Source: Streptomyces sp. NBC_01478 (GTDB lineage Bacteria; Actinomycetota; Actinomycetes; Streptomycetales; Streptomycetaceae). From it: 64,000 nucleotides of DNA. Positions within the stretch are counted from its first letter, which is position 1. Each line of letters starts with the position of its first letter. A program made the position numbers and the translations under genes. Shown here piece by piece: positions 45,096 through 47,599 of the stretch. The notes below the pieces were generated by a model that saw only the letters and a list, made by a program, of their open reading frames with translations, searched no databases and was not told the DNA's origin. Location: the NCBI RefSeq assembly GCF_036227225.1, contig NZ_CP109444.1, positions 6,243,501 through 6,307,500 of the forward strand, written 5' to 3'.

Positions 45096-45290
45096 CTAGT
45101 CGGCGAACGGGGCGTCGTACTGCGGTGTGCCCGTGGTCGAGACGCCCACTGTGCTCGGGGAGATCGTGCGGGAGCCGGTAGTGGTGATCTTCGTGCCGTT
45201 GGAGGGGAGGTAGGTCACCGCGCCGTCGCCGTTGACGTCGTCGAGCTTGAATTCGGTGAACTCTGAGGCGTGGCGGGGGCTGTCTGGATG
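45096..45290 (-). pseudogene. Second FG-GAP-like relic
   Basis: The minus strand reads FTEFKLDDVNGDGAVTYLPS with TGSRTISPSTVGVSTTG up to the stop. The DVNGDGAVTYL motif is an FG-GAP/calcium-binding unit. Its upstream end runs into the long inverted repeat, which probably truncated it. Confidence 0.5.
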
Positions 45291-45329
45291 CTGGGGTTGG
45301 GAGCTGCTGTGGCCGCCAGTTCGAATGTC

Positions 45330-45720
45330 ACCGTTGGGCCACTCGCTTCTTAGCCAGTGTCGGGCTTCCACGACCCGAGTAAAGGGCGCTCCCTGCGGTC
45401 GCGTCGGCTACGCCGATTCCGCTCCGCTCCACCCTTGACTCGGCCCGCTCCAGCCCGTTTCGGAAGCGAGCGAGCAGCCCGGAGGAATGGGGGCCCAGCC
45501 ATGAGTTCCCTTGGGCGAGCTGCGTTCCCGGCCGGGATGGAGGGGGCGCGCTGGCGTCTCGCCAGCACGCCGGGCTGGCTCAGCGGCCAACCCCCGGTGG
45601 GGACTTCCGCACGAGACCACGGGCCTGCGGGACGCAGGGACGCGTTCGCGCCTCGCCTGCACGCCGGGTCGGCTCAGCGGCCAGCGGCGGGCGGGTACTT
45701 CCGCACGAGACCCCGGCCTG
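45330..45720. repeat. Left arm of a ~1.2-kb inverted repeat
   Basis: It begins accgttgggccactcgct and is mirrored on the opposite strand from 46530 inward with long runs of identity (for example ccagccatgagttccctt). It also carries the first two of three ~94-bp direct sub-repeats, with ggctcagcggcc at 45577 and 45671 (the third, at 45768, lies inside the core). No coding capacity. Confidence 0.85.
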
Positions 45721-46149
45721 CGCGAGCAGGGGCGTGGTCGCGTCTCGCCTGCACATCGGATCGGTCGGCTCAGCGGCCCACGACCGGTGGACAGTGGGCG
45801 GTGGGCGGTGGGTGGGCGCTGGAGGCTGGGGGTAAAACTAACCACCGTCACGGGCTTTGACCGGTTAGGAAAGACCTCAGCTTCCAGACAGGACAGGGTC
45901 GGCGGCGGGAAGGGAGCCCCCGGGGGCGAGGGCTGTGGGGGCCGGGAAATGCCATACCTCGACCCCCGACCCTCACATTTCTACGGACCGGCGCCCCAGG
46001 CGAGAGACTCGATCGTCGAACGGGGCTCACCGCCCGCGCCCCCACCCAGCCCAGGACAGCTCAGCGCAGGACCGACCGACTGCCTCAGGCCCACCCTCCT
46101 GCCCCGGAACCTCCCTGCCGACCCGGAGTCCTCTGGCCGACCCGCCGTC
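45721..46149. other. Core of the inverted-repeat element
   Basis: About 430 bp between the arms, including the third left-side sub-repeat and a stretch with acctcagcttccagaca. No gene or obvious RNA motif is visible. It is less G-rich in part (ggtaaaactaaccaccgt). Confidence 0.5.
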
Positions 46150-46530
46150 TTCTTGCGGAAGTCCCCACCGGGGGTTGGCCGCTGAGCCGACGCGGCGTGC
46201 TGGCGAGGCGCCAGCGCGTCCCTGCGCCCGCAGGCCCGGGGTCTTGTAGGGAAGTCCCCACTCGCCGTTGGCCGCTGAGCCGGCCCGGCGTGCTGGCGAG
46301 ACGCCAGCGCGCCCCCTCCATCCCGGCCGGGAACGCAGCTCGCCCAAGGGAACTCATGGCTGGGCCCCCATTCCTCCGGGCTGCTCGCTCGCTTCTGAAA
46401 CGGGCTGGAGCGGGCCGAGTCAAGGGTGGCCCGCAGGGCCATCGCCGCAGGCGACGCGTAGCGCAGCGGAGCGCCCTTTACTCGGGTCGCGGAAGCCCGA
46501 CACTGACAAAGAAGCGAGTGGCCCAACGGT
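46150..46530. repeat. Right arm of the inverted repeat
   Basis: The reverse complement of this arm matches the left arm over most of its length, with a divergent patch near 46425-46475. It contains two inverted sub-repeat copies (tggccgctgagcc at 46176 and 46269, period 93). Ends ggcccaacggt at 46530. Confidence 0.85.
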
Positions 46531-46556
46531 CACGTACGAACGGGCGCTCAGTGTCG

Positions 46557-46964
46557 CTATGACGTGCAGACGTTCTTGAGTTTGGTTGCTGCCGTGTCGA
46601 TTTTGCTGGAGTCGGGGTTCGTATCGCCGTTCAGGATCGACTTGTTGTAGTCGGAGATCGCCTTGTTGAGGTCGTCGACTGCCTTGTCGACTTTGCTGTC
46701 GTCCGAGTTGGCGTCGATCTTGTCGATGTTCTTGTTGATCGTGTCGATGGATTCGGCGGTCTTGGTCGGGTCCTTGGCCGCGTCGACGCCCGCGTTGTGG
46801 ATCGCTTTGAGGCTGTCGGAGATCGAGTTCCAGTTCTTGAGGCAGTTCAGGGAGTTGGAGGCGTCGGAGGTGTCCGTGGGGTCGCAGGCCGTGAGGAGTC
46901 CGGTGGTCAGGGCTATGGCTGCGGCGGTCATGGTCAGGGTGGCCGTACGGCGGCGACGGTTCAT
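46557..46964 (-). CDS. Small lipoprotein of unknown function
   Basis: Protein of 135 aa. Signal peptide with lipobox LLTAC (Cys27), then a hydrophilic, Asp/Lys/Asn-rich domain with two further Cys (NSLNCLKNW and LKNVCTS), probably a helical bundle with a disulfide. GC is lower than in neighbours. The ATG at 46964 has GAAGGAAAC upstream. The family is unknown; its 3' end lies next to the inverted-repeat element. Confidence 0.75.
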   Translation of the reverse strand: MNRRRRTATLTMTAAAIALTTGLLTACDPTDTSDASNSLNCLKNWNSISDSLKAIHNAGVDAAKDPTKTAESIDTINKNIDKIDANSDDSKVDKAVDDLNKAISDYNKSILNGDTNPDSSKIDTAATKLKNVCTS

Positions 46965-47509: not shown

Positions 47510-47535
47510 CCATGGTGTAGCGCGCTACACCATGG
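47510..47535. promoter_or_regulatory. 26-bp perfect palindrome, operator candidate
   Basis: ccatggtgtagcg (47510-47522) and its reverse complement (47523-47535) meet with no spacer. This resembles a TetR-type operator around TGTAGCGCGCTACA. It lies upstream of the small membrane protein gene. Confidence 0.6.
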
Positions 47536-47553: not shown

Positions 47554-47599
47554 ACGACGACGCCCCGCACCCTCTGGTGAGGGTGCGGGGCGTCGTCGT
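47554..47599. terminator. Perfect 21-bp stem terminator
   Basis: The left arm at 47554-47574 and its exact complement at 47579-47599 enclose a 4-base loop (tggt). It lies 18 bases past the stop of the Fe-S oxidoreductase gene on the minus strand. Confidence 0.85.

Follow-up and report, generated by a model that had tools for sequence, protein, structure and literature searches.

An inverted repeat with hairpin-forming ends in Streptomyces, possibly a non-autonomous foldback mobile element

What kind of DNA is a long inverted repeat that encloses no recognisable gene, and how did it come to stand in the interior of a Streptomyces chromosome? The window, meaning the whole 64-kb stretch that was analysed (G000:C1:6243501-6307500, in a single 12.12-Mb contig), holds one such element, described in an initial annotation as a ~1.2-kb inverted repeat with nested direct repeats. 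Both parts of this description were borne out. Self-BLAST aligned the arms, 45314-45708 and 46151-46546, as inverted copies with 89.7% identity over 397 columns (E 7.6e-148), all other inverted repeats of at least 60 bp found by self-comparison of the window lying inside the element. Direct sub-repeats with units of 92-97 bp were recovered in each arm, with spacings of 94 and 92-96 in the left array and of 93 in the right pair. The divergent patch reported within the arms corresponds to the tip of the palindrome at each arm end (left, ~45391-45429; right, ~46430-46468). The features of this copy are compiled in Table 1; its central stretch, 45800-46150, retains 86-89% identity in the six other full copies of the genome.

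Table 1. Features of the element copy in the window and of its right flank (window coordinates).
Feature	Position	Strand	Basis
Whole element, to the outer edges of both arms	45314..46546	.	self-BLAST; 6 other full copies in the genome
Left ~146-bp end-palindrome	45337..45482	+	profile match L034 1838-1983, by a profile that recognises its own reverse strand as well
Right end-palindrome, in the opposite orientation	46376..46523	-	profile match L034 3024-2877
Left palindrome core (AAGGGCGCT...CACCCTTGA), variable tip with minihairpins	45382..45438	+	pattern match G000:C1:6288882-6288938
Right palindrome core, other tip variant ("divergent patch")	46420..46478	-	pattern match G000:C1:6289920-6289978
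Left minihairpin, GTA triloop on the outward-reading strand	45404..45416	-	sequence; triloop scan
Right minihairpin, GCA triloop on the outward-reading strand	46427..46441	+	sequence; triloop scan
Second right minihairpin, GCA triloop	46442..46454	+	sequence; triloop scan
Left tandem array, units 92-97 bp	45540..45790	-	38-bp motif copies 45557-45590, 45652-45687, 45744-45777
Right tandem array, unit 93 bp	46157..46315	+	38-bp motif copies 46175-46207, 46264-46301
Central ~67-bp palindrome	45820..45886	.	within central stretch 45800-46150
Small intact gene, right flank	46557..46964	-	ORF list; stop codon 10 bp from the element

The seven ORFs lying over the element returned no match to Pfam families, in line with the reported lack of a coding frame or transposase. 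The proposal that an FG-GAP gene had been truncated on the left was not confirmed, since the 91-aa ORF found there (45096-45371) matches no Pfam family at E 0.1. On the right, the small flanking gene appears lipoprotein-like from its signal sequence as read by eye; its Pfam matches are weak and below the cut-off, and the flank is conserved in genome G198. Farther to the right, the window also contains a perfect 26-bp palindrome (47510-47535; L034 4011-4036) and a 46-bp hairpin (47554-47599; L034 4055-4100). The central ~67-bp palindrome is found solo elsewhere in the genome as well (L027, L033 and L036-L039, at ~3.7-6.4 Mb), in hairpin-forming copies of 76-94% identity that seem to make up another family of hairpin repeats.

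The 12.1-Mb Streptomyces chromosome G000 carries seven full copies and one lone end-palindrome, with seven forward and eight reverse cores, dispersed over unrelated, chromosome-internal sites. Whole-element alignment indicates that the copies share the same plan with differing repeat numbers, and that they also differ by 1-nt indels. Over long matches they are 82-85% identical; therefore no movement looks recent, which counts against reading them as a mobile element. The window site is occupied in G198 too (L179, 81.7% identity running from the element interior into the flank), and so is the L030 site, the copies at both sites thus being old. An assembly error at the window locus is unlikely, because of this same-site copy and the six further full copies in G000. 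Two draft contigs of G198 (C37 and C59) begin no more than a few hundred bases from an end-palindrome, as if the assembly broke there. The site of L029 is empty in G011, where flanks of 82-86% identity stand 5 bp apart, compared with ~1.3 kb in G000. This is the one clean empty site; it reveals a discrete insertion, and no target duplication was seen at it. No clean empty-site junction was recovered at the window locus, L030, L032 or L035, their flanks being rearranged, too diverged or not joined, nor was any flanking direct repeat seen by eye at the window copy and three copies of G240 (L262, L265 and L266). Several element ends in G000 follow GTGACCG-like letters, which may belong to the repeat itself. 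The initial interpretation is partly supported, a non-autonomous mobile element being in agreement with the dispersed copies, their patchy distribution, the empty site and the lack of a recognisable gene.

Beyond this chromosome, the core pattern matches 58 of 199 sampled Streptomyces genomes, while its reversed-pattern control gave zero in every genome of the genus listed. In a sample of the phylum it matches three of 246 genomes, two of the same genus, counting G000, and one from a different family. At least 118 stretches match in named genomes, the 80 titles among the matches listed being all Streptomyces. Some genomes are rich in them: G006 shows 20 + 20 core matches, and the 8.45-Mb single-contig chromosome G240 has 67 end-palindromes anchored in the 36 loci taken, 29 facing pairs among them, with homology mostly in ~1-kb blocks and two arm blocks in the longest. 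Plasmid records were matched by the window element (11), by a G240 element (2) and by L061 (6), mostly as short core matches. A phage origin was rejected, the core pattern having no match in viral contigs and element L061 none in phages. Among individual stretches, L058 (G012:C1:8907500-8912000) holds a 1.8-kb element that lies ~0.13 Mb from the contig end and whose ~640-bp arms are built from ~67-bp repeats, and a self-repeat scan of L044-L051 found no second arm within the stretches examined. A search of the open-access literature that included the core letters, with most subscription journals outside its scope, found no description of the element, even though the core turns up in roughly three of every ten Streptomyces genomes sampled and some carry dozens of end-palindromes. 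G240, whose dozens of end-palindromes come without the 38-bp arm motif at the threshold used, would be well suited to tests of mobility.

Elements are built by a simple rule, in which two inverted palindromes flank a middle of variable length. Of 90 distinct comparisons between neighbouring end-palindromes, 87 show a facing pair and the exceptions are one ++, one -- and one -+ pair separated by more than 3.5 kb; the facing pairs span 525-3,217 bp (median 964). These counts were made after removing eight loci present twice (one pair and seven single palindromes). Counting against the explanation preferred below, another 90 distinct end-palindromes have no partner in the stretch examined, many of these stretches ending nearby. 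The arms carry a 38-bp motif (GCCGnnnGCCGCTnAGCCnACCCGGCGTGCnGGCGAGA) in 52 of the 87 pairs, namely in 7/7 of G000, 45/51 elsewhere and 0/29 of G240; the 35 pairs that lack it at the threshold used, all 29 of G240 included, are a further point against that explanation. Where present, it is directed outward in 192 of 193 cases, and 309 of 310 matches in an undeduplicated set fall within 1.8 kb of an end-palindrome, in loci of at most 11.5 kb that say little of the rest of the genomes. Pairs occasionally enclose cargo: six of the 87 contain ORFs of at least 80 aa with coding bias, nine ORFs in all. Eight of these were searched in Pfam, five having no match above the cut-off and the others matching an LD-carboxypeptidase without the start of its N-terminal domain, an aminoglycoside-adenylyltransferase-like protein and an endosialidase chaperone. 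Autonomous copies seem unlikely among these pairs, no transposase having been found among the eight proteins.

The view that the locus forms a DNA structure, also raised initially, is supported by the end-palindromes themselves. When 44 of them were aligned, a 51-pair structure was formed in 92.4% of cells, whereas slid controls pair at 36-46%. Double-sided (compensatory) changes amount to 109 against 38.2 in shuffles, with 0/500 shuffles as high; further pair types, one of five measures, did not rise above shuffles (96/500 as high). On the outward-reading strand the minihairpins at the tips present GNA triloops in 411 of 418 cases, a figure partly selected in that one core pattern fixed the loop letters. 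Among 113 cores not chosen by loop letters, the values are 157/160 for GNA and 155/160 for a closing C-G pair. Control hairpins with 3-nt loops, located away from the elements in named loci, have GNA in only 78 of 1,262 cases, with a minimum stem of 5 bp as compared with 4 bp in the element count and with a few control loci counted twice. The second pair of the minihairpin occurs in both orientations (97 and 63), indicating that UNCG RNA tetraloops on the opposite strand are not the constraint, and a known RNA was rejected in the absence of an Rfam match for the element. Regarding isolated stem mismatches, A.C outnumbers G.T on the inward strand by 99 to 18 (64 and 10 groups), and by 37 to 9 in cores not chosen by loop letters, in counts that are not phylogenetically independent. 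Such an excess would follow if the outward strand tolerates G.T, a tolerance that leaves unexplained the A.G (137) and C.C (101) mismatches, both more frequent than A.C. Altogether, GNA triloops and compensatory changes point to selection on the folded strand.

Considering these features, our preferred explanation, to which we give about an even chance, is a foldback mobile element that is non-autonomous, has ends folding as single-stranded DNA and is moved in trans by a putative enzyme. The end-palindromes would work as DNA hairpins on the strand that has its 3' end at the outer edge of the element, and would therefore be used when this outward strand is single-stranded, during replication or conjugation or when ends are processed. 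Both hairpins of such a single-stranded intermediate would be recognised by an enzyme acting in trans, perhaps together with a protein bound to the motif array; the enzyme would copy or move the intervening DNA into short gaps downstream of genes, leaving the target unduplicated. DNA between the hairpins, genes included, could travel as cargo, and recombination between copies may also contribute. Against this reading, no enzyme moving the element was found among the eight enclosed ORFs searched, a clean empty site comes from a single locus, and Y1 matches occur in four of ten carriers. The question posed is which enzyme recognises a 146-bp DNA hairpin. Eukaryotic Foldback (FB) elements, such as Tetris and Galileo, have the same long inverted arms of internal tandem repeats, a variable middle and non-autonomous copies. 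The Streptomyces element differs from them in being bacterial, in having large palindromes with GNA minihairpins as ends, in that its single clean empty site shows no target duplication and in that no related transposase was seen among the enclosed ORFs searched. Hairpins at the ends and lack of target duplication are likewise features of IS200/IS605-type elements; however, the Streptomyces hairpins are much larger and stand in opposite orientation at the two ends, and Y1 (PF01797) has no match in six of ten carrier genomes (G240, G198, G020, G009, G006 and G004). The repeats are likely rearrangement substrates, genes can ride between their arms, and they link internal chromosome sites to the ends of a linear plasmid.

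The same absence of Y1 bears on whether the element is a giant REP/REPIN-like repeat, that is, inverted palindrome pairs moved by a RAYT (Y1) transposase. Facing pairs that are intergenic, multicopy, patchy and devoid of a gene of their own resemble the REP dimers described in PMC3733652, and Y1 matches do occur in the four other carriers (G022, G016, G012 and, weakly, G000). Nonetheless, G240, with the most copies of the genomes examined, has no Y1 match, Y1 is matched in 6 of 14 genomes where no full element was found (the 14 including G279, which has one 31-bp match to the element), and palindromes of ~146 bp instead of 20-40, spaced by 0.5-3.2 kb and able to enclose cargo, are foreign to such repeats, so that RAYT mobilisation looks quite improbable. 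PMC3733652 catalogues GTAG and CGTC REPs, its main text making no mention of Streptomyces or Actinobacteria; CGTC occurs within the palindrome core. A classical MITE, an internally deleted DDE transposon with long terminal inverted repeats, would fit an intergenic, dispersed element with such repeats and no recognisable gene, but it is made unlikely by the clean empty site without target duplication, by the four copies without a flanking direct repeat and by loops in which the proteins searched include no transposase. Structured RNA or a bidirectional transcription terminator at gene 3' ends deserves attention on account of the gene context, as judged from neighbour genes called by codon-position composition. 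A gene 3' end adjoins the element end in 107 of 153 cases, and the 47 classified elements lie in 21 convergent, 21 tandem and 5 divergent gaps, compared with 69, 259 and 87 in 415 background gaps (Fisher p 2.6e-5 for the convergent excess). Such a location may, however, merely reflect tolerated sites. Moreover, the loop rule fits DNA GNA triloops, Rfam gives no match, the strand favoured for folding reads outward, against the direction of transcripts that arrive from neighbouring genes, and neither kilobase spacing nor cargo would be explained, all of which leaves this function with little probability.

Linear replicons provide a further alternative, in which the element derives from, or feeds, replicon ends copied by telomere machinery (Tap/Tpg-like end patching), chromosomal copies being integrated mini-ends. 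On the linear plasmid NZ_CP109028.1 a half-element adjoins each telomere, within a terminal inverted repeat that combines telomere palindromes with a motif copy and a single end-palindrome, the latter having its outer edge toward the plasmid interior (L300 1-776; right end of L297). The window element arm matches the half-element at 75-78%. A truncated end-palindrome is also located in NZ_CP108294.1, ~4 kb from the right end and ~0.3 kb beyond the inner edge of the right terminal repeat. According to PMC8743542 and PMC7205883, Streptomyces telomeres resemble the element in having palindromes with GNA triloops on the 3'-terminal strand and compensatory changes, GNA loops being common and some telomeres carrying CTTG loops (PMC7205883). 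On the contrary, the element consists of one large palindrome with minihairpins at its tip, its G000 copies are internal, and it lies near a replicon end only in these two plasmids, a third (NZ_CP108163.1) having its end-palindrome far from the ends; only three plasmid records match the half-element, the query's own included. Two plasmid telomeres used as queries gave no long match, but a single 30-bp one inside pair L063 and a 31-bp one elsewhere, in a search set that also held 44 alignment rows, which can only add matches. GNA hairpins number 15 in 75 kb of element middles and 9 in 92 kb of flank, a small excess at most. Hence, we consider the derivation from replicon ends improbable; telomere-telomere fusion was rejected, as the middles have hardly any telomere sequence and at most this small excess. 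Somewhat less doubtful, though still on the unlikely side, is a foldback single strand with telomere-like ends, whose GNA-capped hairpins would act as mini-telomeres or complementary-strand origins served by linear or conjugative-replicon machinery, with the plasmid half-elements and solo cores of Micromonosporaceae belonging to the same system.

These solo core hairpins are found on two Micromonosporaceae plasmids (L340 2490-2566 and L341 2489-2564), the former between mobC and a divergent gene and the latter with an unnamed gene in the place of mobC. They stand where an oriT would be expected, and are a candidate single-strand feature of an oriT region. A solo core is also present on a Nocardia plasmid, and a looser one on an alphaproteobacterial plasmid (Nitratireductor thuwali, L339 2500-2583) consists of GTCAAGG, minihairpins with TNC loops and CCTTGAC.
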